Notes under the pieces: generated by a model
Told to the model about the DNA's origin: nothing
The model's input: the letters and a program-made list of their open reading frames with translations, nothing else
Database searches by the model: none
Part shown: piece after piece, positions 5,528-56,575 of the stretch
Numbering within the stretch: the first letter of the stretch is position 1
Layout: each line of letters begins with the position of its first letter
Position numbers and translations under genes: made by a program
NCBI GenBank assembly: GCA_963971425.1
Contig: OZ020525.1
Location: 20,404,187 to 20,468,186, forward strand
Direction: 5' to 3'
Length of the DNA stretch: 64,000 nucleotides
Origin: Bryoerythrophyllum caledonicum
Taxonomy: Eukaryota; Streptophyta; Bryopsida; Pottiales; Pottiaceae

Positions 5528-6466
5528 TAACCCTTTAGTGTTGAAGTGGTCATTTTTGGATAAATTCTAGTGCTTCATTGGGTATAGCTCTTTACGGTGT
5601 AAGTTAGATGCACTTTCTTTTTGTTGGAAATGTATCTAGCACTACATTGATCTTGGTATGTAGTGTTACACTACATTTAATGTTATAACCCCTCATTACC
5701 ACATAACTCTAATGTAGTGTAACACTAAATACCAAGATCAATGTAGTGTAACACTAAATACACTACATTGATCTTGGTATTTAGTGTTACACTACACCAC
5801 ATAACTCTAATAATGTTTCTCTAGAAAAGTAGGGTTACACTTCAACCACAAGAGTCCTTTCATCACTTTTTGTACACTTTGTATGGCTACCCGTTACATA
5901 GTGTCTACCCTCGATAGGGGGGAGTAGTTCCAACTTACTAATTCCTTGTCCGGTGGGCATGGTCTTAGTAGTGGAACGAACAAACACTTTATTCACGCCG
6001 GTACCCTTCGGGTACCGGCGTTCTTCTTCTTCTGTACACTTTGTAATATTTTTTTTTATTTCTTAATTTTCTACAAATGATTTCTTCATTAATAACACTA
6101 AATGTAAAGGTAGTTAAACTCCAAAATAACATTTCTCTGCATTTAGTGTTCATTATTGACATTTTGTGTTGTAACATTATTGACATATAGTATTAGGGTT
6201 TCTAATTAGTGTACGGTACACTAAATCAAAATTAGTGTAGTTTATACATTTCAAATGGAATAATTTCCGAGTGCATTGGTGCAAGCATCTGAGAGCTACA
6301 ATGATGTTTGTAAAGTGGGGTCGCTGTGAAATGCACCCTATGTGTAGATGTTGTTGTGCATTATCTACCAATTGTTGTGCATGATCAAGGAATTTATCTA
6401 CCAGCTGATTACACTCATGAACTCTTCCAAGCCTTGTGAAAACCTCCAGCATTAAAGGGTTAAAAG
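5528..6466. repeat. TTAA-bounded inverted-repeat element (MITE-like) carrying a nested LINE end
   Basis: The left edge reads TTAACCCTTTAGTG and the right edge is TAAAGGGTTAA, giving short inverted ends with TTAA at both borders. Inside, 5640-5810 contains three copies, two in opposite orientation, of a segment built on CATTGATCTTGGTA and TAGTGTTACACTAC, so it is strongly palindromic. A short LINE 3' end is inserted at 5884. The right interior (6250-6430) is similar to 16480-16620 and 59040-59190, showing that this is a dispersed family. No transposase is present. Confidence 0.5.
5884..6032 (+). mobile_element. 5'-truncated LINE 3' end (149 bp) with 13-bp target duplication
   Basis: The insert is flanked by an exact 13-bp repeat, TGTACACTTTGTA, at 5871-5883 and 6033-6045. 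Its 3' end is a perfect 11-bp stem (arms 5996-6006 and 6010-6020, loop TTC) followed by a TTC-repeat tail. The same 3' region, including ACATAGTGTCTAC and GTAGTTCCA, occurs at 54500-54640 directly after LINE coding remnants, which identifies this insert as a truncated copy of that family. Confidence 0.75.
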
Positions 6467-14267: not shown

Positions 14268-15569
14268 AAAAATCAATTTGCGTGAAATCCATGAGGAATT
14301 AGGTTGTGAAATGTGAAGTTCAGATTTGTGCACAAAATCAATTTGCGTGAAATCCATGAGGAATTAGGTTGTGAAATGTGAAGTTCAGATTTGTGCACAA
14401 AATCAATTTGCGTGAAATCCATGAGGAATTAGGTTGTGAAATGTGAAGTTCAGATTTGTGCACAAAATCAATTTGCGTGAAATCCATGAGGAATTAGGTT
14501 GTGAAATGTGAAGTTCAGATTTGTGCACAAAATCAATTTGCGTGAAATCCATGAGGAATTAGGTTGTGAAATGTGAAGTTCAGATTTGTGCACAAAATCA
14601 ATTTGCGTGAAATCCATGAGGAATTAGGTTGTGAAATGTGAAGTTCAGATTTGTGCACAAAATCAATTTGCGTGAAATCCATGAGGAATTAGGTTGTGAA
14701 ATGTGAAGTTCAGATTTGTGCACAAAATCAATTTGCGTGAAATCCATGAGGAATTAGGTTGTGAAATGTGAAGTTCAGATTTGTGCACAAAATCAATTTG
14801 CGTGAAATCCATGAGGAATTAGGTTGTGAAATGTGAAGTTCAGATTTGTGCACAAAATCAATTTGCGTGAAATCCATGAGGAATTAGGTTGTGAAATGTG
14901 AAGTTCAGATTTGTGCACAAAATCAATTTGCGTGAAATCCATGAGGAATTAGGTTGTGAAATGTGAAGTTCAGATTTGTGCACAAAATCAATTTGCGTGA
15001 AATCCATGAGGAATTAGGTTGTGAAATGTGAAGTTCAGATTTGTGCACAAAATCAATTTGCGTGAAATCCATGAGGAATTAGGTTGTGAAATGTGAAGTT
15101 CAGATTTGTGCACAAAATCAATTTGCGTGAAATCCATGAGGAATTAGGTTGTGAAATGTGAAGTTCAGATTTGTGCACAAAATCAATTTGCGTGAAATCC
15201 ATGAGGAATTAGGTTGTGAAATGTGAAGTTCAGATTTGTGCACAAAATCAATTTGCGTGAAATCCATGAGGAATTAGGTTGTGAAATGTGAAGTTCAGAT
15301 TTGTGCACAAAATCAATTTGCGTGAAATCCATGAGGAATTAGGTTGTGAAATGTGAAGTTCAGATTTGTGCACAAAATCAATTTGCGTGAAATCCATGAG
15401 GAATTAGGTTGTGAAATGTGAAGTTCAGATTTGTGCACAAAATCAATTTGCGTGAAATCCATGAGGAATTAGGTTGTGAAATGTGAAGTTCAGATTTGTG
15501 CACAAAATCAATTTGCGTGAAATCCATGAGGAATTAGGTTGTGAAATGTGAAGTTCAGATTTGTGCACA
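14268..15569 (+). repeat. 65-bp satellite, 20 copies, essentially identical
   Basis: The phrase CGTGAAATCC recurs exactly every 65 bp from 14281 to 15516, giving about 20 copies over 1.3 kb. I saw no differences between internal units. The unit begins near AAAATCAATTTG and ends GATTTGTGCAC. Sixty-five is not a multiple of three and no reading frame runs through the array, so it is non-coding. Confidence 0.95.
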
Positions 15570-17030
15570 TAATACAGGAAGGAACACTCTTTAGAAATCA
15601 AATCATGGTTTGGAGTTAAAAGTTGGGAATACAACACAATATACATCAAATTCACTAAAATATAGTGAATACCATGCCGCATACTATGTTGTATTTCATG
15701 CACATGCAAAATGATTTTGGTATTTAATTTTGGTTGAAATTTGTCTTTTAGAGATTCTTCATTGTTTTGTGGTTGTCAATCTCTCTCATTGCATACAAAA
15801 CTTCGGATTCAATTCCTATAAGTTTGGAACATTTTTGTATACAATCAAGTAGACAATAGTGAAAAAACCATTAATAATCATGTATAAATTTTTTCTCCAC
15901 ATATAATATGTCAATGGGAAGCTATTGACCTAGTGCACATGCAAACCTCTTCTATTCAAAGTTCAAAAATTCTTGCAAGAATCTGTTGATGGATAAAGTA
16001 GTATACCCTCCAAAGTTCACAATTTTTTTTATCTATATACGGTAACTTTGAACACAATAATCTAATTTATCAACCGTTGGATGTTGTGCAAATTTTCCCC
16101 AAAGTTCAGATCATGGTTTGAGTTAAAATTTGTAAGGTTGGATACTAAAATTAGGCATTATATTTCCATCAAAGTTAGTTCAAAGAAAAAAAAATCATCA
16201 CATTTCTTGGCTTAGAGAAACATGACGTGGGCCCTAAAGGATTAAGGGAAATCAGCAAGGAGCACATGATAAATATACACTACACCCTATTCCACTTCCA
16301 CAAAGCCATGATGACTTAATCCTTTAATGACCAAGGGACCAAAAAGTGGTTGATGAGACCGATTTTCTGGGAGACACCGCTGATTGAACCGTTGGATTAA
16401 TTTGCAGTGGTCACAGCAGCAATGTGCATTGCTTTCCTACATCTAACCCATCTACCCGATCTCCTATTGGTTGAGGTAGTAACGAACTACAATGATTTCT
16501 ATGAAAAAGGTCACAATGAAATGTACACTCCGTGAAGATGTTGTTCACATTTTTTTTTTTGCAACCCATCTTTTAAGTTCGTTGATTTTCTAAAATCCCA
16601 TGCAAGGCCTCGCCGTTAAAGGGTTAAGATGCCATCCTTGGAATTCCGGTAAGTTCACCATCCCCAACCCCACCACCATGACCTGCACCTCCGTGCCCTG
16701 CTCTACCGCCTTCGCCAAACACCTTGACGTTTTTGACCAGTAGCTGTCGTCCCTCTCCTCCGAGCCTGCCATCACCGCCACCGCATCTCCCTTTGCATGC
16801 TACATGGCCCGGCATCGCACGGCACCTACCCTTCAACCCTCATCATGCAGTATATATCAGATTCATACTAGCTCTCTCTATTCTCCTACTGAGCTTTTCT
16901 GCCTCCTACTAGTGTCCTCACTGGTGTCACAGCCAACTACTTTTTCAGCACCGATAGAGTTTTCTCATGCCGGCGTTGTTGGTACGTCTCTTCGAGCACT
17001 GGGTTTCATTGCGCTTGAATCTTCTGTGTA
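15570..17030. other. Gene-free interval with repeat fragments
   Basis: AT-rich sequence without genes. About 16235-16330 and 16320-16630 look like pieces of TTAA-type repeats (CTTAATCCTTTAATGACC near 16315; GCCGTTAAAGGGTTAA ending at about 16626). The interior at 16480-16560 resembles 6290-6370 and 59070-59130. From 16640 onward base composition rises toward the histidine-phosphatase gene and probably holds its promoter and 5' untranslated region. Confidence 0.4.
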
Positions 17031-17073
17031 AGCAGTGCTCCCAAACTGGGTGAGTGGTCGGACAATCGCAGCC

Positions 17074-18760
17074 ATGGCTACCACAACCAGCGATGAGAAA
17101 ACTCAGCCAGCTCTAGGGGGTCAAGTCGCAGAATGTGGGAACAAATCATCATGTGTGGAGGTTATTTCTGTGCAGAGACCCAAGGCGGCCGAAGAAGCGC
17201 CCTGCGATGTGAGCTCGGACCCATTCGTGCAGAACCTGTTCGTCCTGTGCCACGGAGAGCACGTCGAGTACAGCCGGGATCATGCCGGGGTGAAAAACAC
17301 GGTTGCAGCATCTGGACTAGCGCTGCAGCGCCCCTGGGATCCTCCATTGACGGACCGGAGCAAGCTGCAGGCATGGCGCGTGGGGCGCACCATCCGCCTC
17401 GAGGACTGGAACGTGACGCGCGTGATGGTGTCGCCCTTCCTGCGCTGTGTGCAAACCGCGGCCGAAGTGATCGCCGGCCTCTGCTTGATGCCCTCCAGTG
17501 TCACCATTGCTGCAGCTGCTGCTCAAGGAGAGAGTCATCCTATTTCTCCCAGCACTAACGACTCTCCTTCCATCAAGGTGTGCTATAACAATATTATTAT
17601 CCTGTTACTAAACCTTCACACTATCCATGACTCCATGACCATACATAGCAGGTCAGTTTCATATTGTGTCACCATGCATACTATCATCTGCCTTGGTGTT
17701 TGTGATTATAGGGTGTTTGCAACGTCCAGTTCATCCTTTTTTCTTTTCTTTTTTAAGGTTTCCATCGAGTGTGGGTTGGCGGAGAAGATGAGGAGAGCAG
17801 TGACGTACCCGTCAGATCAAGGCGCTGCAAATAAGGATCCGCTGCAGCCATGGACGTGGGACTTGCCTGAGCTCTACTCCATGCTGCCGCCTGAGGTGCA
17901 GGATCCGAACTTTCGACCCATTCGCCAAAAGGTACAGCCCCCTTATCTCACCAAATTCCTAATCCATCCCTACTTTAAATCCCCAGCTCCTCATGTCCAT
18001 GACAATTGTACCATTAAAACTATAGCTCATCGGCGTGTCAGATCTCGAGTCTGCAACTGTGACATAAAAGACGATCGAGTCTACAAGATAATATCATGGC
18101 AAGCCTAACTCCACTCCCAGAGTTCTGTTACTAGCATTCTGATACCCCTAGAAAGACTCGGCAATGGTGAAGGAAAAATTTGCTCCACCATCCCTACGGG
18201 CCCTTTTATTGAAAGGAAGGTTATCTCCTTTTTTATAGAGCTAGTAGAGGATGAGTTGTTTCCCATTTTCTAACCTCCTGACTCGTTTGATGCAGTTGCC
18301 TTCAAGCAGAGAAACTGCAGCAGAAGTGCAGCACCGATACACCTCCACATTCCAGATGATCGCCAACAGATACCCCTACGAGAACATCCTCTGCATTACA
18401 CACGGTATTACTTCACCCTCTCACCTTCTCCTACTCTGGAAAATGGAAGTGATTCACCCTGGAATCAGCTGATTGGATTAGGTGCATTGATAGGACATCA
18501 CTGCAGGTGCTAAAATTCCTCCAACTTAATTGATTGGTCGATGTTGCATTGCAGGTGAGGGAGTGAGGCAGTCGGTATCCATGATGTGGCCTCGAGTGGA
18601 GGTGTGGAGTTGCGATTTGTACAGTGCGTTTACGCACGGCCAACGGCCCAACTTCGGGTCTGAAGATGGAACTTGCATCATGCATGGCGACTGGGAACTC
18701 CTCACGGAGTCGGGGCCAGCCTCAGGTGTTTATTTTAGCCCTTCCAATTCGCACCCGTGA
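17074..18760 (+). CDS. Histidine phosphatase (phosphoglycerate mutase-like) with altered RHG motif
   Basis: Four exons (17074-17577, 17758-17931, 18296-18404, 18555-18760) join in phase with GT-AG introns to give 330 residues. The ATG at 17074 has a good context (GCAGCCATGG). The protein matches the plant phosphoglycerate-mutase-like family: an LCHGEH motif at residues 58-63, RPWDPPLT, then SPFLRCVQTA, and near the C-terminus ITHGEG and SYSAFT-like SCDLYSAFTHG. In this superfamily the first motif is RHG. The Arg that binds phosphate is Cys here (TGC, codon at 17248), although His60 and the second Arg and His are kept. Activity may be reduced or lost. Substrate is unknown. A basal N-terminal extension of about 50 residues precedes the domain. 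Confidence 0.88.
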
Positions 18761-19379: not shown

Positions 19380-21480
19380 ATGACATCTTAATGACCCCAT
19401 GCAGTTTGCATGTAGTGGAATCGTGCTCTTTCTATGCATTGAAATGGCACTCTTGTCATGCCACATAATCCCTGGCACCATTCTACAATAGTTGAAAGAC
19501 TTCTTGTCAGATGTGCATGAAATCATCCATGGCAAATGACGCTTTCATAATTAACATGGCCATGTTGTAAGGGCCTCCTTACACTTGGAGGCACCTGCAG
19601 ATTGCCATATGTTTTATGTGGACGCTCCTATATATTGCCATATGTTTTATGTGGAGGCACTTGTAGATTGCCATCTGTTTTATGTGGAGGCACCTACATA
19701 TTGTCATATGTTTTATGTGGAGGCACCTACAGATTGCCATATGTTTTATGTGGAGGCACCTATATATTGCCACAGTGTTTTATGTAAAGGCACCTATATA
19801 TTGCCATATGTTTTATGTGGAGGCACTTACATATTGCCATATGTTTTATGTGGAGGCACTTGCAGATTGCCATCTGTTTTATGTGGAGGCACCTATATAT
19901 TGCCATATGTTTTATGTGGAGGCACCTACATATTGTCATATGTTTTATGTGGAGGCATCTATATATTGCCATAGTGTTTTATGTGGAGGCACCTATATAT
20001 TGTCATATGTTTTATGTGGAGGCACCTATATATTGCCATAGTGTTTTATGTGGAGGCACCTATATATTGCCATATGTTTCATGTGGAGGCACTTGCAGAT
20101 TGCCATCTATTTTATGTGGAGGCACCTATATATTGCCATATGTTTTATGTGGAGGCACCTATATATTGCCACAGTGTTTTATGTGGAGGCACCTATATAT
20201 TGCCATGTGTTTTATGTGGAGGCACCTACATATTGCCATGTGTTTTATGTGGAGGCACCTACATATTGCCATATGTTTTATGTGGAGGCACCTATATATT
20301 GCCATATGTTTTATGTGGAGGCACCTACATATTGCCATATGTTTTATGTGGAGGCACCTATATATTGCCATAGTGTTTTATGTGGAGGCACCTATATATT
20401 GCCATGTGTTTTATGTGGAGGCATCAACAGATTGCCATATGTTTTACATGGAGGCACCTACATATTGCCATTATTATGTTTTATGTGGAGGCACCAACAA
20501 ATTGTCATATGTTTTATGTAGAGACACCTAGAGATTGCCATATGTTGTATGTGGAGGCACCAACAGATTGCCATATGTTTTATGTGGAGACACCAACAGA
20601 TTGCCATATGTTTTATATGGAGGCACCTACGGATTGCCATATGTTTTATGTGAAGGCACCTATATATTGCCATATGTTTTATATGGAGGCACCTACGGAT
20701 TGCCATATGTTTTATGTGAAGGCGCCTATATATTGCCATATGTTTTATATGGAGGCACCTAGGGACTATCATATGTTTTATGTGGAGGCACCAACAGATT
20801 GCCATATGTTTTATATGGAGGCACCTACGGATTGCCATATGTTTTATATGGAGGTACCTACAGATTGCCATATGTTTTATGTGGAGGCACCTATATATTG
20901 CCATATGTTTTATGTGGAGGCACCTACAGATTGCCATATGTTTTATGTGGAGGCACCTACAGATTGCGATATGTTTTATATGGAAGCACCTACAAATTTC
21001 CATTTGTTTTATGTAGAGGCACTTGCAAATTGACATATGTTTTTTGTCGTATGGATAAATCCATGCACACTATAACGGTGGTAAGACAATAGAGTTCTCT
21101 AGAACAACCTTCTTAAAGAGGAAAGAAATGAAAAAGACATGGTGAGATTTAAATATGAAAAGAAAGAGAGTATCGAGAATTTCATGATTTTTTTTGTGTC
21201 AAATTAATGCGCCATGGCAATCAATGCTCTTGGGCCCTATCCAATGCACACTAAAGTTCCTCCATAGTACTGTAAAAGAATATTATTGAGTTGAAAGAGT
21301 TAAACAATAGTGCCTTGCACCTTTTGCAAACCAAATAACAGTTTCATGTGGTCCCAATCATTATCATAAGACCATAAAATACGGGTGACATATAAGGTGA
21401 CCAAATTTTACTTTCTAAGAAATTCTATCATTTTGGAAGTGGGTATATAGCAAGTCAACAATAAGATTGGTCAGTTCAAA
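19380..21480. repeat. Dispersed repeat A, copy with expanded minisatellite
   Basis: The left part (about 19380-19560, with GCATGTAGTGGAATC and CATTCTACAATAGT) and the right part (21050-21270, with GGTAAGACAATAGAGTT and AATGCTCTTGGGCCCTAT) both recur in the next copy at 21490-22450. The right part also recurs at 35030-35200. Between them lies the 33-bp minisatellite. No transposase or clear terminal repeats were identified. Confidence 0.65.
19584..21050. repeat. 33-34 bp minisatellite, about 43 units
   Basis: The unit contains TTTTATGTGGAGGCACC, then TATATATTGCCATATG. Variants carry CTACAGATT or CTACATATT, and a CATAGTG form is one base longer. Because 33 is divisible by three, most frames on both strands stay open for 60-240 codons (for example MWRHLYIAICF repeated). 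These frames are repeat artefacts: they shift at every 34-bp unit and lack start or splice context. Confidence 0.95.
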
Positions 21481-30700: not shown

Positions 30701-31600
30701 TCTACGCCAATCCCTTCAGTTACCTGGAAGCACCCCCAGCCCGAGCAGGACCTGGAGGTCATCCTGGAGCCGATAGCTGCTGGGCACGTCTAGGTTGGAC
30801 CCTCCCCGGAGTTGCGCCATCTCATTGGAATTATTCCATATTCTGGGCGAGGAATTTTTACCTTCCCCGGCATCGACTTCAAAGTGGACCAATCCACTCT
30901 CTTGCCCAACTTCACCTCCACATGAACACCCCGCGCAATGAAGAGATTTAGTTCGTTGCGTTTGACGAATGGGACGTCATACGACACTTGGTAAACTTCG
31001 ATGCATCGGTTTTTAAACGCCTCGTCGACGCAATGTTTCAAGTTTGCCTTGTGGAAGCACCGGTGATAGTTATGTCGCTCCTCTGGGAAAGCCTTGTCGA
31101 TGTGGCACCACTCGATGTAGTTCGCGCAATCATCAAAACTCCATGGCTCCACTACGTCCTCCCAACCTCGAAAAGCCAACTTCTCGGGATTACGAAGAAC
31201 GTGCAACCGCTTCCGATGGGCGTTCCCCACTCGTGCACAGGTCTTGTCTCGCTCCTCCTTGGCCAATTGTCCGGGTGAAGACATGGTGTGTACGTGTTCT
31301 CGCAAAATTCTGGCGTGGATGGATGAATGAGACCTCGCACGACGCCAACATCCAGCTCAATGAAGAGATGGTGGATAGGAGTATGCGAGGCCGGGACAGA
31401 TGAGGAGTGCCCCCATTAAAATAGTAATCCGGTAGGGGCGGAGACGTCTCCGCCCCTACTGAGGCAAGGCGGGGACGTCTCCGCCCCACTAGGGCAGGGG
31501 CGGGGACGTTTGCTTGTAAATTTTGGGGGGGGTTCGTCTCCACAAAACTCATGAAGGAGGCGTTTGAGGCCATTCTTGCTCAAAAATTAAACGGGCAAGG
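27780..31600. other. Degraded retroelement territory, no intact gene assigned
   Basis: Composition is higher in GC than the neighbours, especially at 28100-28900. Overlapping open frames exist on both strands (plus 28325-28882; minus 28051-28935), typical of GC-rich DNA. The plus frame is Ala/Glu-rich with no domain I know. 29300-30800 holds several 60-110 residue frames broken by stops, consistent with decayed coding DNA. At 31434-31457 is a perfect 24-bp palindrome centred on GACGTC, with a second imperfect copy at about 31468-31490. Confidence 0.4.
30790..31305 (-). CDS. Hypothetical 171-aa protein (possible element-encoded)
   Basis: An intact minus-strand frame with a balanced composition, including four Cys/His-containing stretches (FDDCANYIEWCHIDKAF, HNYHRCFHKANLKHC). 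It ends in a basic Pro-containing tail (KVKIPRPEYG). It lies in retroelement-derived DNA next to another minus frame at 31190-31573. I do not recognise it. It may be a remnant of a transposon protein. Confidence 0.3.
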   Translation of the reverse strand: MREHVHTMSSPGQLAKEERDKTCARVGNAHRKRLHVLRNPEKLAFRGWEDVVEPWSFDDCANYIEWCHIDKAFPEERHNYHRCFHKANLKHCVDEAFKNRCIEVYQVSYDVPFVKRNELNLFIARGVHVEVKLGKRVDWSTLKSMPGKVKIPRPEYGIIPMRWRNSGEGPT

Positions 31601-37429: not shown

Positions 37430-37840
37430 TTAGTTTCATGCCGGCGTTGTTAGCGCCAGACAAGACGACTACCGCGCCTCAGCAATAGCAACCACAGGAA
37501 CCCGCTACACTAAACATCGCATTTAGTGTCGTCTACACTAAATACGAACCCTTACACTAAAAGGAAGAATTACAATTAGTGTGACAACACAACATTACAC
37601 TAAATGTGAAACATTACACTATATGTAAAAGTGGGTGGTTTTTTTTTTTACTTGTGTTCAATTAGTGTAGTAGCTATATAAGCTTGCCACAGTGAATAAA
37701 ATCACTACTAGTATATGATAAAGCTTGCCGCAACTACCACTAATTGTGAACAAGTTCGCAAATGGTGTAGTAGGGTAATTACACTATTTGTGTGACTACA
37801 CTAAATGCGATGTTTAGTGTAGTTTCCAACAACCATGGGA
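37430..37840. repeat. ACACTAAATG-rich palindromic repeat
   Basis: The block contains many inverted copies of ACACTAAATG/CATTTAGTGT. Its right part (GCAAATGGTGTAGTAGGGTAATTACACTATTTG) recurs at 42715-42780 and, inverted, at 40860-40930. This is a non-coding MITE-like family. A small direct repeat (GGGAAATGGGAA) follows at about 37840-37890. Confidence 0.55.
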
Positions 37841-38130: not shown

Positions 38131-39487
38131 TCAGTTAATGACGACCACATTCTCGTCGTTGGTGACGACTAGGTTGGCCTTCTGGTTGCCTTTCCCGCCG
38201 TTGGTCTGTTGCTGCTGAGGCCAGAAGGCGGAGCGCTTCTTGATCTTCTGGAGACGCTTCAGAAGTCTCTCCGGAGCGATGGAACTGGTCACCGTCACCT
38301 TCTGACCCCACTGGTCACAGGTAACTCGTTGCACATCTGCACATATAATAGTGATCCTCAGCTTTGTTAGCGTTTGCTTCTCAAGAAAAGACACAAATTT
38401 CACACTGTTTCAAGTGCTAATCGTTGAGCTTCTGGATATGTCTCATTCTCAATCTAAGGGTAGGAAAACTGACAGCCAACCAAGTCACCAACAACGAGTG
38501 CTAGAAGGGTTCTCGACTTACCATCGAGATCCAGAAGCTGCTCTTTCACCCGGCTCTCACACTTCTCGCAACACAAAGGCACCATGAAATGCACCGTCTG
38601 TTCATCACAAAAGCATCCAAAAAGCAGTAAGTAAGAGCGACATAAGATCAGAAGTCTAACCTATCGTTAACTACCATGAACTAAGTATCAAAATTGCTGT
38701 CAAATTTGCTACAAGCTGCGGCATGAATTGATTCTAACCTGCACGTTAACGACGTTCCGTGGTTGCAAGACAGGTCGAGCCGGGCTCTGGACATGCTTCG
38801 CGGGGCTCTGCATCTCCGCCACCTGATTGATCGGTGCCATGGCCACATTGACTGCACCATTGTTGGGCCCATGATGATTCCCTGCCCCCTGAACGAAGTA
38901 CTGCGTCTGGTAAGGGTACATCATTCCCTGAGGAACTGGCCTGTAAGGCCCTCCCTCCGGAGGCGTCGCCACGGTGTATGGCACCGCGTTCCGCTGCCAT
39001 ACATGCGGATTGCGTCGGTACGTGTACGCCTCGTCGGTGTAGATGGCGTAAGGGTTCGCGTAGCAGCTCTCGATCGGGCGCTTGTTACCGGGGTGGTACT
39101 GCGGGTGCACTATCCATGTCGGCTCCACTGGCCCGTAAAACAGCTGCACTCAATCAAAACAAAGTCAGAATGCCAGCCAAACAACCGCATCTCGAGATAC
39201 TCAACATCAGGAAATCTGCAAAACCAATGCCAGAAACATCAACGTAGTGCTCAGCAAGAAATCATGGGAGCTCGACTGAAATAACAGCCCGTAAAACAGC
39301 TGCACTCAATCGAAACAAAGTCAAAAGCCAACCAAGCAACGGCTCGAGATATCATGGTCAACATGAGTATTCAGAAAGTCTGCAAAACCTATGGACACTG
39401 AATGCCAGAGTCACAAATATAGCGCTCAGAAGGATTCATGAATAAACAAACCATGGACGAGCATACCTCAGTCATGGTGTTCATCAT
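38131..39487 (-). CDS. Heavy-metal-associated (HMA) domain protein, plant type
   Basis: Exons on the minus strand are 39487-39467, 39143-38739, 38597-38522 and 38336-38131, all GT-AG and in phase, encoding 235 residues. Residues 8-142 form a Tyr/Pro/Asn-rich, probably disordered leader (YGPVEPTW, then Pro-rich repeats of SPA). Residues 143-215 form an HMA fold: beta strand VHFMVPL, metal-site Cys in LCCEKC (Cys152 and Cys155), helix SRVKEQLL, then VTCDQWGQKVTVTSS and ERLLKRLQKIKKR. Plant HMA proteins bind copper, zinc or cadmium or act in defence. The C-terminus ends NVVVIN with no CaaX box, so it is an HPP rather than an isoprenylated HIPP. A TATA-like sequence lies at about 39651-39658. Intron 1 contains a duplicated copy of the exon 2 acceptor. 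Confidence 0.87.
39144..39466 (-). repeat. 157-bp tandem duplication copying a splice acceptor in intron 1 of the HMA gene
   Basis: CCCGTAAAACAGCTGCACTC occurs at 39131 and again at 39288, and the following sequence is similar for about 150 bp. On the gene strand both copies read GAGTGCAG followed by CTGTTTTACGGG, the real exon 2 acceptor and first codons. The upstream copy is therefore a decoy acceptor. Confidence 0.75.
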
Positions 39488-39699: not shown

Positions 39700-40445
39700 G
39701 GTCACTTGCAACGGACATGGCCGGACATCCCCCCAACGGAATAGTGGACTGCCAGAGTGGACTCGTCCAACGGCTGACTGTACTGCGGCTGATGTGGACG
39801 CGATGGCATCTCTGCCGTCTAAGGCGATTTCACTTTTGCAGGGATTTTGTAGTATCCAAGATCTAGGAAATCACAAGCGATGAAGGACATCCACTTCCTT
39901 GAAGGGAGATGAAACATGCAGAAAGTCCCTTGAACGAATCTCTGTCCAATGTATCATCCACAGAGGTCTCTTGAGCTCCATTCCAGCCCGTCCGCTCAGA
40001 CTTGGAGTCCAACTTATTCCCGCTCTCACTCTCTCCTTCCTTCACAACTCTCTCTCTCTCCTACGGACCTCTCCATCTACGGACCTCTCTCCTTCACTCA
40101 TCCCTCTCGTGCGTGTACAACTCTTTTCTTATCTCCTCCACTCCAAACCTCCTTCGCAAGCTCTTTTGCACTCACCTTTGCACAAGTCCTTCGCTCACCT
40201 CCTGTTTGTTGGCTCTACTGTAACGATTATTTCGTTGGTATCCTTCTTGGTTGTGTCTTTATTCTGTTGTTGACTTGGAATTCTTGTTCGTGTGTTTGCT
40301 ATTTGTTTTTTACTTGGTGTGTTTGTGTGTCTGCTAGAGAGAAAGCACTATCGTCTTAATTTAGGTGCTGATTCGCTTGTGTAGGACAGAATGTGTCTGC
40401 GTCCTGTGACCCATGTAAGAAAGTTCTAGGGGTATAACCTGGAAG
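39700..40445. other. Gene-free interval, CT-rich
   Basis: Upstream flank of the HMA gene. 40020-40200 is strongly CT-rich and leaves several open frames that I consider compositional. No RNA gene was seen. Confidence 0.4.
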
Positions 40446-40450
40446 ATACG

Positions 40451-40549
40451 CGGCGACAAGGGCTCGGTGCAGATGGGGCACTCCAGAGTGTGGACGTCTA
40501 GACCATCAACACTCTGGAGTGCCCCATCGGCACTGAGCCCTTCTCGCCG
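40451..40549. ncRNA. Candidate miRNA-like foldback derived from a SINA-type RING coding segment
   Basis: Arms 40451-40491 and 40509-40549 are complementary over 41 nt with three mismatches, separated by a 17-nt loop. Each arm, read from the loop outward, encodes the start of a SINA-like RING finger: TLECPICTEPLSP on the minus strand and TLECPIGTEPFSP on the plus strand. The minus copy continues to RIFQ followed by a splice-donor-like GTTATA. SINA proteins are E3 ubiquitin ligases, but no complete SINA gene is here. Stem length and loop size fit a plant miRNA or hairpin precursor. Expression is unknown. Confidence 0.5.
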
Positions 40550-41754
40550 GTTGGCGGTGTTGACGGCAATCTGGACTTTGGACGACGACCTCACCTGAAG
40601 AGAACTTCCACTCATCAACTCTTTGGCAAGGCGCTGATCTTGAGATAAAACTTGGTCGTGTGATCTCATCTCTTGCTTGCATAAATGCCATATCTGGTTG
40701 ATACCTAGACAAATGAATATGTTGGAGTCTCAGTGCAGCGTGCGTTCAACCGCACTGCCTCGCTCAGCAGCTGCGCCTGCCGCCTGCCTCGTTTGTTCTT
40801 GCTCTTCTCCGCTCCTTTGCCACTACTCTAAAAATGCTGTTTTAGCTTATCCACACTACACTAATCATCGCATTTAGTGTTGTCACGCAAATAGTGTAAT
40901 TACCCTAGTACACTATTTGCGAACAAATTTATGATTAGTGGTTGCCACCAACATCATTATTGATTTTCTATCAACCGTCTGGTAGCCGTCATGTCTTTAT
41001 TATCTATGTTCACTTTCCCACCTCTCTACCCCCAATCAATGGCCTACCGGTTGTCATGCCTATCCCTAAGTCTTTTCTTAACATCATCAAAATCTTTGAA
41101 TGCCTATAACTTACTCAAATTTTTTTCAAATCAAACATTTAAGATGTTTTTTGACGTTTACAGAAAAGGTAAATGTTCAAAAACATCTCATAAGTGTAAT
41201 TCTGATTTTTTTTGAGTGACTTATGCTCTTCTTAACAGTGTTGTTTTTCACTTATACTAATTATGCATAAGTAAAAAAAAAAAATCCAATTTTTACTGCC
41301 ATTCACAAATAGTACAATGTTTCACATTTAGTGTATTGTTATGTTATTATACTAATTGTGATTCTTACATTTAGTGTAACGGTTTGTGTCAAGTGTAGAC
41401 TACACTAAATGTGATGTTTAGTGTAGTGTATGAAAAGCTTGCTGAGGTGAATGAAAAACAATGTTGTTCAGAGGAACATAAGCCATTCAAAAAAAATCGG
41501 AATTACACTTATGAGATGTTTTTTGACATCTACGTTTTCTGTAGATGTCAAAAAACATCTCATATGTTTAATTTGAAGAAAATTTGAGTAAACTATGGGC
41601 ATTCAAAGATTCTGATGATGTAAAGGAAGATAGACTTACGGAAAGGCATGACGGTTGGTAGGTAATTGATTGGGGGTAGGGAAGGTGAGAAATAGGAAAA
41701 GTCAACATAGAGAATAAAGACATGACGACTAGTAGGCGGTTGATTGAGGCATCA
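40550..41754. repeat. Repeat-derived interval with the empty-site copy for the adjacent element
   Basis: 40855-41000 contains an ACACTAAATG-type repeat and the sequence CCAACATCATTATTG (about 40948), the uninterrupted counterpart of the flanks of the element at 41755. 41160-41580 holds inverted copies of AAAAACATCTCATA around a palindromic stretch. There is no gene. Confidence 0.5.
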
Positions 41755-42679
41755 TTAACCCCTAAAGGACCTCAACCACTTTCGCCTTAAAACCAGTCCA
41801 AAACTTTCACTGCCAAAAAAAGACATGAAAATCACATTTCAAAGTGACTTTCGGATTTTCAACCATAAGATCTTAAAATAGACTTCTATATAAACATGCC
41901 ATTAAATTTTGGCTGCAATCCACTACACAGATTTATAGATTTTAGTGTTTAAAGTCAAAACAATGGTTCATTTTCTTCCCTGTATTGAGTAGATCAATTT
42001 GACTTCACTTTGTATCAAATTTTTGCATTGTACAAGGTCTAAATCTTTTATCATTGTCTTAAGCATGATGTTATTTCCCAACACACCAATTTTTAGAGGT
42101 AAAAAAAGGTGTGTAGCATATTCAAAACAAGTGTGCAAGGAGTGGAGGTTCAAAAATTGCCATTTCACGTTTTATTTTTTTGTGAACTACGTATGTATTC
42201 AAATGATAATCCAAAAGGTCAATAAGAAGGTTTTCACCACATATTGTTGTTGAAAAAATAAAAAGTGAAAAATAAGATCTCTAGGTTTTATGTAGAAAAG
42301 ATGAATTTTTTTTCCCCGGTTGCCCGACAATGTGTGAAAATGTTTGACTTGGAATAAAATGCCTTCTACACTAAAGACAAGATTTTTTTCTCAAAATTCC
42401 CAAAGAAGGAAATATTCTTTATATGTGTGAAAAATCTCAATGTCAATAGAAACTTTTGTCAAATTTTTTGGAGGTGCCCGAAGTCCCCACTTTTGGCTTT
42501 TAGTGGTACTAACTTTCAAACCACAAATCCAAAAAATAAAATAAAAATATGTCCACGAAGCTCTTATTAGAGGCAATCTAGAATAACAATTTCAGAGAAA
42601 AAGAATTTTTTTCCGAATTTTAGGAACCTGTGCAAAATCAGAAATCCCCCCGAAGGAGATTTGGTCTTTTAGGGGTTAA
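41755..42679. mobile_element. TTAA-flanked inverted-repeat element, 917 bp (piggyBac/Kolobok-like target)
   Basis: TTAA is present at both borders (41755-41758 and 42676-42679). The ends are CCCCTAAAGGACC and GGTCTTTTAGGGG, an inverted repeat with one mismatch. The interior is AT-rich without a transposase and matches 36600-37340 and 46090-46680 in inverted or partial form. The flanks (CCAACATCA on one side, TGATGCC on the other) correspond to a continuous sequence at about 40948. TTAA duplication with a CCC-start terminus is known for piggyBac and Kolobok DNA transposons. Confidence 0.7.
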
Positions 42680-42699
42680 TGATGTTGGCGGCTAACACT

Positions 42700-43016
42700 A
42701 ATCGTGAACTTGTTTGCAAATAGTGTAGTAGGGTAATTACACTATTTGCGTGACTACACTAAATGTGATGTTAAGTGTTCTTGTGCACAAGTTAAAAAAT
42801 AATCCAATTTTTACTGCCATTCACATGTAGTGTAATGTTTCACATTTAGTGTATTGTTATGTCATTACACTAATTGTGATTCTTACATTTAGTGTAAGGG
42901 TGTGTATTTAGTGAAGACTAGACAAAATGTGATGTTTAGAGTACTGTGATTGACTTATGAATGCAATAAAATCTTTCATCTTGATGAATGTTTTTTACCA
43001 ACTACTATATGCATTG
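42700..43016. repeat. ACACTAAATG-type dispersed repeat
   Basis: The stretch GTTTGCAAATAGTGTAGTAGG, then ATTACACTATTTGCGTGAC, equals the right part of the repeat at 37740-37830. It continues with CATTTAGTGTATTG as at 41335. No coding content. Confidence 0.5.
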
Positions 43017-48099: not shown

Positions 48100-48744
48100 T
48101 CAATAGGCGCCGGTCATTGGAAGAGGCACAGGTGCTCGTCCCGGTGCAGGCGCATGGTGCCGTGGAGGAGGGGGCACGTGATGATGGCGGTGGGGAGAAG
48201 GCGCAGGGGAGTGATCGTGGTGAGGAGAAGGTGCAGGAGAGTGATGGTGGTGAGGAGAAGGTGCAGGAGAGTGATGATGGCGAGGAGAAGGCGCAGGGGA
48301 GTGATGGTGGTGAGGCGAAGGTGCAGGGGAGTGATCGTGGTGAGGCGAAGGTGCAGGAGAGTGATGGTTGTGAGGGGAAGGTGCAGGAGAGTGATGGTTG
48401 TGAGGAGAAGGTGCAGGAGAGTGATGGTTGTGAGGAGAAGGTGCAGGAGAGTGATGGTTGTGAGGAGAAGGTGCAGGAGAGTGATGGTTGTGAGGAGAAG
48501 GCGCAGGGGAGTGATGGTGGTGAGGAGAAGGTGCGGGGGAGTGATGGTGGTGAGGAGAAGGTGCGGGGGAGTGATGGTGGTGAGGAGAAGGTGCGGGGGA
48601 GTGATGGTGGTGAGGAGAAGGTGCAGGGGGATAGTGGTAATGGTGAGAAGGTGGAGGAGCGTCTGCCACTGCAGCAGACGCCGGAGTGAGAGCTGCCAGG
48701 GCGAGCATAAGAGGAAACAGAACAAAAGGTGTGGTGCTCATCAT
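48100..48744 (-). CDS. Secreted His-rich arabinogalactan/extensin-like protein
   Basis: A single-exon frame of 214 residues starting MMSTTPF. Residues 1-25 are a signal peptide (hydrophobic core VLFPLMLALAAL, cleavage after ASA). The mature part is about 15 repeats of a 10-residue unit, PHHHHSPAPS, with His replaced by Asn, Asp or Arg in some units. SPAPSP and APAP are hydroxyproline/arabinogalactan glycosylation motifs, so this is a cell-wall glycoprotein. The His clusters could bind metals. There is no GPI-anchor tail; it ends PLPMTGAY. An ATATAAAG TATA box lies on the minus strand at 48802-48810. The 30-bp DNA repeats leave open frames in other phases, which I disregard. Confidence 0.88.
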   Translation of the reverse strand: MMSTTPFVLFPLMLALAALTPASAAVADAPPPSHHYHYPPAPSPHHHHSPAPSPHHHHSPAPSPHHHHSPAPSPHHHHSPAPSPHNHHSPAPSPHNHHSPAPSPHNHHSPAPSPHNHHSPAPSPHNHHSPAPSPHHDHSPAPSPHHHHSPAPSPRHHHSPAPSPHHHHSPAPSPHHDHSPAPSPHRHHHVPPPPRHHAPAPGRAPVPLPMTGAY

Positions 48745-48810
48745 GTTGGCTGCGATGTTGGAGCGTGAGGGAAAACTGTGAGGAGGATGTGAGAGGAGGC
48801 TTCTTTATAT

Positions 48811-53199: not shown

Positions 53200-53640
53200 C
53201 AACTCAAAGAAAAGAAAAAAAAACAATGGAAATCTTGAGGGAACTTGTGAAAAATAATGGAAATCTTGAAGAAAACAATGGAAATCTTGAAGAAAACAAT
53301 GGAAATCTTGAAGGAACCTTATCACTAAAATTGTGTACAAGGAATTGACAAATTGACTTTTTGTTAACCCTTTAGTGACAATGAATTCCTTGTCACTAAA
53401 GGAATAACAATAAGTCAATGTGTCAATTCCTTGTACACTTCTTTTTTTTGAGGTTGAGAAGGGATGTAGCATATTCAAAACAATTAAGCAAGGAATAGAG
53501 GTTCAAAAAGTGCCAATTCATGTTTTACTTTTTTTGTGCACTTAGAAGGTTTTAGAATGATAATCCAAACCGCCAATAAGGAGATTTACACCACATATTG
53601 TTTTGGAAAAATAAAGGTAAAAAATATGAAGATCTCTAAG
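53200..53640. repeat. Repeat fragments
   Basis: 53215-53310 contains a 23-24 bp tandem (AATGGAAATCTTGA). 53363-53405 is a short palindrome, AACCCTTTAGTGAC against GTCACTAAAGG. 53460-53640 matches the interior of the TTAA-type family. No gene. Confidence 0.5.
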
Positions 53641-55447: not shown

Positions 55448-56020
55448 TCACCAATCGCCTCTTTGAACAGTAAGAAAATTTACAATCTTGACAGACGCCG
55501 CCTCAAGCTCACTTCGCACGCTCCTCTCCAACTCTTCCAGCTCTCGAAACTGCTCTCCAGTTGCAGCACTGCCTGCTTCCCAGACTCCAACGCTCTGGGT
55601 CTCCGGCAACCGATTCAACCCCGCCATGGAAGCAACCGTGTCTTGAGCTAGACTGACATCCTTCTGATAGAAGACCTTCTGGGCGTCCGTGGAGGAATAG
55701 CTGCGGATCGAGGCTTCCAGTGCCTCCAAGCACGCTCTGGCGTCTTCGCCGCCGACGAGATTCTCCCTGGTTGGACCTGGGAGTGCTGCGAATGCGACGG
55801 TGAGGCCGCGGGAGAGGCCCCAGTTGAAGCCCGCGACGGTGGCCTCGGCATAGCCTAGGTTGAAGCCCTCCTGCACGGAGGCGTTCTTCCCGGCCTCGAC
55901 TCCGTCCCTGTAGCCTAACGTGTGGAACTGGTTCTGGCGAGCCTGCCACTCTTGGTCTAGCTCGGATGCGCCGCGGCGGTCGCCTTCGTTGTCTGAGCCC
56001 CAGAAGTCGTCATCAAGCAT
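55448..56020 (-). CDS. YAE1: Yae1-domain protein (Fe-S protein assembly adaptor)
   Basis: A single-exon 190-residue protein starting MLDDDFWGS. Residues 36-72 carry the deca-GX3 pattern that defines the Yae1/Lto1 N-terminal domain: Gly at 36, 40, 44, 52, 56, 64, 68 and 72 (GYRDGVEAG, GFNLGYAEA, GFNWGLSRG). In yeast and humans Yae1-Lto1 links the cytosolic Fe-S targeting complex to the ribosome recycling factor ABCE1/Rli1. The C-terminal half is helical (EQFRELEELERSVRSELEAASVKIV). It lies head to head with RRP42, with starts 0.9 kb apart, so the two may share a promoter region. Whether it is the Yae1 or Lto1 paralogue cannot be settled by eye. Confidence 0.85.
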   Translation of the reverse strand: MLDDDFWGSDNEGDRRGASELDQEWQARQNQFHTLGYRDGVEAGKNASVQEGFNLGYAEATVAGFNWGLSRGLTVAFAALPGPTRENLVGGEDARACLEALEASIRSYSSTDAQKVFYQKDVSLAQDTVASMAGLNRLPETQSVGVWEAGSAATGEQFRELEELERSVRSELEAASVKIVNFLTVQRGDW

Positions 56021-56575
56021 GATGGAATAGCAAAATCTGGAACCCTAGAAAAACTGATCCAAGCAAATTTGAATCCCTTCAATTGAAAAGTTGACACGCA
56101 AAGGGACATCAACGACGAGCAGGAGCACAAGGTTGAGCACAAGTGATGGAGATGATGGTGATGATTTTCACTGTTTGATGGTAATGACAAGGAGAGTTGT
56201 AAACGATGATGTCTCTCGATATTGTTTAGAGTATATACCTTCTTATGTTGGTTTGTAGGAGAACATACGTTACTAGAGAAGAGAGAAAAAAGACACATTT
56301 CCGGCGCCTGTTTGCCCATACCCGGCACAATAGCGCCCGGATTCAATCCCTCGTCTCTCCTCTTGCGCGCGCTAAGTCATATTCTGGAGGGAACATTTTT
56401 ACAGGTCCTTCGCCACAGCTTCTCCGATTCTCTTTAACTTTTGGCCTCGGATTGCGTCCTGTACTGCAGGTGTGTACAATGATTTTGTGGGTTTCGCGTA
56501 ACAGGATTCGATTCTCGTGAGGCAAAGTTTTTTAGTGCTGGACTGGCGATTGCAGTTGGCTGTGCGAAAAGTAGG

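Follow-up and report, generated by a model that had tools for sequence, protein, structure and literature searches.

In the 64-kb window (the whole stretch of DNA analysed, 64,000 nt), a hairpin at positions 40451-40549 is probably a young inverted duplication of a RING-encoding exon fragment, with the SINA-like family as the probable donor. The geometry described in the sequence-only reading, two 41-nt arms with three mismatches across a 17-nt loop, is borne out by an alignment of 40451-40491 against 40509-40549: 38 of the 41 arm positions are identical between the opposed copies. The left arm (40451-40491) reads (H)TLECPICTEPLSP on the minus strand and the right arm (40509-40549) reads TLECPIGTEPFSP on the plus strand, where the second Cys has become Gly; the loop takes up 40492-40508. 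A repeat finder draws the inverted arms slightly longer (40451-40494 and 40506-40549, 44 nt, 91% complementary), which leaves a spacer of 11 nt. As plus-strand RNA the stem has two mismatches, since the remaining arm difference becomes a G-U pair.

The hairpin is not a chance product. Folded together with its flanks, as had been proposed as a check, the stretch 40440-40560 reaches -83.1 kcal/mol against -44.3 +/- 3.5 kcal/mol for its shuffles (z -11.2, with 0 of 200 as good), and alignment and fold together confirm the near-perfect pairing that had been claimed. A survey of the plus strand, in which one 99-nt stretch was folded every 33 nt of the window, gives the lowest energy among 1937 stretches to the one starting at 40459 (-74.6), followed by those at 31417 (-61.7) and 5710 (-61.5). 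We also ran a census of hairpins in the window (40-nt arms, at most 4 mismatches, loops up to about 60 nt). It returns 4 calls at 3 loci, and the hairpin at 40451-40549 is among these with 37 of 40 positions paired. Of 15 dinucleotide shuffles of the whole window, one reaches 26 pairs at best and another 27, the remaining 13 staying below the reporting floor of 26. An assembly artefact or foldback chimera is an unlikely source because the arms differ. The G-U pair was for a time considered as a sign of plus-strand preference and then dropped: the bare hairpin folds slightly better on the minus strand (-85.5 against -81.4 on the plus), whereas the 401-nt stretch 40300-40700, which includes the flanks, folds better on the plus strand (-160.8 against -143.8).

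Both arms resemble the opening of a RING finger. The peptides that had been assigned to them are indeed encoded there, HTLECPICTEPLSP by the minus strand of the left arm and NTLECPIGTEPFSP by the plus strand of the right arm. The narrower claim of a SINA-type opening fares less evenly: the coding likeness to a RING opening stands on both arms, but the assignment to the SINA family is suggestive, with a Pfam match below the cut-off. This match is to Sina_RING (PF21362). When the outward flank is included, the minus-strand peptide hits no other Pfam family; with 25 residues it reaches an E-value of 0.0075 and 16.8 bits, short of the curated cut-off of 29.3. Other forms of the peptide give E-values of 0.0099 (30 residues), 0.026 (54 residues) and 0.15 (the whole 122-residue frame). 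In every form the alignment covers model positions 1-14 of 35 and stays below 29.3 bits. The match requires the 12 nt beside the left arm (40439-40450, minus strand), which encode RIFQ and have no counterpart beside the right arm; Pfam reports no family for the left-arm peptide once RIFQ is removed, and none for the right-arm peptide. Part of the evidence for SINA therefore lies outside the hairpin, in sequence that the earlier reading had not used. Plant SINA-like proteins presumably read approximately L(D/E)CP(V/I)C.EPL...PIFQC at the corresponding place, a form that the hairpin peptide fits.

Shuffle controls help to place the Sina_RING match. Of 50 peptides in which LECPIC is left in place and everything else is shuffled, none matches Sina_RING, which puts the real peptide at 1 of 51. 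Among the matches listed for the shuffled peptides most are to zinc-finger families, including Zn_ribbon_InsA (0.0045) and Zn-C2H2_12 (0.007). Since shuffled peptides reach equal or better E-values with other families, the Sina_RING E-value alone is not significant and only the family is specific; we consider that E-value weak, and the weight of the match comes from its agreement with a family named in advance. In PDB, phmmer lists 17 chains with weak scores (E no better than 0.1); RING and zinc-finger proteins make up most of them, and none carries the name SINA or SIAH. Across all six frames of the window the pattern [LF][DE]CP[IVL]C occurs once, at the hairpin, and a pattern search of the same frames finds no C..GH..C..C, the second half of a RING. 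Likewise, 10 window peptides give no Pfam match to the C-terminal SINA domain, and a rough pattern for that domain also finds nothing. Compared with the SINA/SIAH RING finger, then, the likeness concerns the minus-strand peptide over model positions 1-14 of 35, while the match is sub-threshold, truncated and without the second half, and the right copy is without the second Cys. Both arms fall short of a complete RING: the minus copy has an incomplete zinc-ligand set, and for the plus arm it is reasonable to argue, as the earlier reading did, that the change of Cys to Gly excludes a RING function. On the minus strand the RING-like reading ends at a donor-like CCAG/GTTATA (40433-40442), a pattern match that would fit a possible exon end. 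Overall, the arms are suggestive of a SINA-like donor.

The small divergence between the arms is in line with the earlier view of an early-stage, young duplication, and the two opposed, RING-like arms support an inverted copy of a gene fragment. Three differences in 41 positions correspond to a K of 0.077. Assuming neutral substitution at 1.3e-8 or 6.5e-9 per site per year, the copies would be 3.0 or 5.9 million years old, with a 95% range of 0.6-19 million years across the two rates, so that the duplication is probably young. Two of the three differences change an amino acid, and the arms appear to carry no sign of coding constraint, although three sites prove little. Should RIFQ be a true part of the likeness, the left copy would extend some 12 nt past the right one. 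The outer flanks of the two arms have no inverted similarity (local score 8.0 against a shuffle mean of 10.6 and maximum of 17.5, n = 200), and no convincing target-site duplication is seen at the hairpin, the best being 5 nt and offset. A longer left copy, unlike outer flanks and the want of such a duplication fit a snap-back. In our picture, a snap-back or template switch may have given rise to the second copy no more than a few million years ago. Transcribed from either strand, the hairpin would fold, and a Dicer-like enzyme would cut it into RNAs of 21-22 nt. In a plus-strand transcript the 5' arm would carry the antisense of the RING opening, and the small RNAs cut from that arm would be complementary to the donor family's mRNAs. 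The hairpin would then be an early 'proto-MIRNA' foldback that has most likely only entered the inverted-duplication route, at its first stage and still undifferentiated, and would have no established regulatory role yet.

Some of the same observations bear on two other explanations for the hairpin. It might be argued that it is a MITE or another transposable-element hairpin whose RING likeness is accidental, given that the window holds two more near-perfect, AT-rich hairpins and that elements with terminal inverted repeats start about 290 nt downstream (40840-41440). The hairpin lies between a minus-strand reading (38709-39149) and the cluster of these elements from about 40840 and overlaps neither. 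However, it is GC-rich beside AT-rich elements, blastn finds it only once in the 64-kb window, the target-site duplication that would speak for insertion is not convincing, and the coding likeness runs 12 nt past one arm only. We regard a transposable-element origin as very improbable. The other explanation, which is a version of our main reading, is that the copy arose in place: the minus strand would be the relic of a SINA-like first exon whose own RING opening snapped back in reverse, in frame. The minus frame 40361-40729 is open through the hairpin and has a donor-like end at 40440, and of three donor-like minus-strand sites in 40300-40800 one falls exactly where the RING-like reading stops. 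Furthermore, there is a weak alignment of the minus-strand flank at 40550-40640 to the loop plus right arm, with 15 identities, 2 mismatches and one gap of 3 nt over 20 columns and a score of 17. This score, however, is matched by 126 of 2000 shuffles in a comparison made post hoc and is not significant; for that reason we do not count the right flank as a third copy. The same flank also scores 17 against the left copy, equalled in 190 of 2000 shuffles, another stretch nearby scores 22 in a 3-kb search, and the pattern search described above finds no second RING half in the window. An origin in place is in our judgement unlikely.

The other inverted structures in the window deserve a short description of their own. 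The hairpin at 5637-5799 gives two overlapping calls in the census (37 and 38 of 40 paired; GC 0.32 in the stretch printed) and the one at 53333-53438 a single call with 36 of 40 (GC 0.30 in the stretch printed). Both are MITE-like by look only and are also possible sources of small RNAs. The elements at 40840-41440, 41452-41747, 42677-42947 and 37505-37823 are related to each other, occur in several copies of differing orientation and share TIR-like ends (ACACTACACTAA...TTTAGTGTAGTGT). They perhaps belong to a MITE or CACTA-like family.

Returning to the hairpin as an inverted duplication of a RING-encoding fragment, its stem was compared with what is required of a plant miRNA precursor. Each of its 21 duplexes of 21 nt and 20 duplexes of 22 nt has 1 or 2 mismatches, and the stem therefore has the structure that the plant miRNA criteria call for. 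A working miRNA at this locus is possible. That the locus is already a functioning young MIRNA or hairpin-siRNA gene, in which a plus-strand transcript gives a discrete 21-22-nt guide that silences SINA-like mRNAs, we consider unlikely. The length of the stem and its few mispairs speak for such a gene, as do two 21-mers with a 5' U (40464-40484 and 40468-40488, 2 of 21 in the 5' arm), which have one duplex mismatch each and are candidate guides. Upstream on the plus strand lies a pyrimidine-rich stretch (39981-40340, 63-77% C+T per 60 nt) that is possibly a transcribed leader, although this is a guess; by eye, no convincing plant promoter is seen for the plus strand. On the other side, Rfam at gathering level reports only three tRNAs in the window and nothing at 40451-40549, and seven arm words of 13-14 nt, five of which were also spelt as DNA, are absent from the literature searched. 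The most far-reaching account would be a newborn silencing locus, a few million years old, in which a RING exon snapped back in place and now supplies small RNAs that tune the donor family of SINA-like E3 ligases; we hold this to be decidedly improbable.

MIRNA loci with arms similar to genes are the subject of an Arabidopsis study that we take to be by Fahlgren and colleagues. Passages of this study (PMC1790633) describe 16 MIRNA loci whose foldback arms resemble protein-coding genes, state that perfectly paired dsRNA is a poor substrate for DCL1, which may make mispairs necessary, and name drift and death as perhaps the commonest fate of young MIRNA loci, a point that weighs against a functioning gene at our hairpin. 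Its MIR163, MIR161, MIR824 and MIR846 share with the hairpin the similarity of the arms to a protein-coding family and the strong self-pairing, but the young loci of Arabidopsis are backed by sequenced small RNAs and by the validation of some targets, whereas the hairpin is known from DNA alone. For rice, a passage of PMC3237417 classes 93 of 290 miRNA genes as generated by inverted duplication. The proposed route of origin is the same for the inverted-duplication and pseudogene-related miRNA genes described there; the hairpin differs in being a predicted locus and does not overlap the neighbouring TIR elements. By analogy with these cases, the hairpin locus fits the first stage of the inverted-duplication road to a MIRNA gene.

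A pairing of a miRNA with a SINA-like gene appears in a passage of one wheat paper (PMC13074741), where a novel miRNA is said to target a SINA-like 7 gene. This is a point in favour of a silencing gene, but the passage gives neither the basis of the test nor the sequence of the miRNA and so supports no link to the hairpin locus. No such pairing appears in the passages of PMC7564825, PMC13032165, PMC11277444 and PMC6118397, and the term 'sina' is found in none of PMC6213654, PMC9332412, PMC6192625 and PMC4714501. A literature search with the letters of the RING/SINA motif has a BRCA1 paper among the matches listed. An 18-mer of the arm and a degenerate RING pattern give no match in a set of viral contigs, which is uninformative as that collection holds no plants. 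If the hairpin is transcribed, it would be a well-preserved early case of MIRNA birth in which the donor sequence can still be read on both arms. The longer remnant on one side would then allow the order of events to be worked out, and a ubiquitin-ligase family would join the gene families from which new silencing loci have sprung. If it is silent, it would be an ordinary relic of duplication.

The surroundings of the hairpin resemble a plant nuclear genome: the window contains three tRNA genes, two Pfam-supported readings and repeat elements with inverted ends. The two readings, a histidine phosphatase (17032-18108) and a Yae1 reading (55448-56044), are both above the Pfam cut-off. Several tandem repeats were observed as well. 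The one at 14269-15573 has 20 copies of a 65-nt unit with 99% matches and is apparently very young, and the one at 19586-21047 (44 copies of 33 nt) is open in several frames on both strands. The GC-rich stretch 31384-31515, where the second-lowest folding energy of the survey was sampled (31417), lies over a short tandem repeat, GGCGGGGACGTCTCCGCC... Finally, the minus-strand open frame at 48100-48804 contains a 30-nt repeat, in about 15 copies, that encodes SPAPSPHHHH-type units; the frame has no Pfam match, and its product resembles a cell-wall proline-rich protein.
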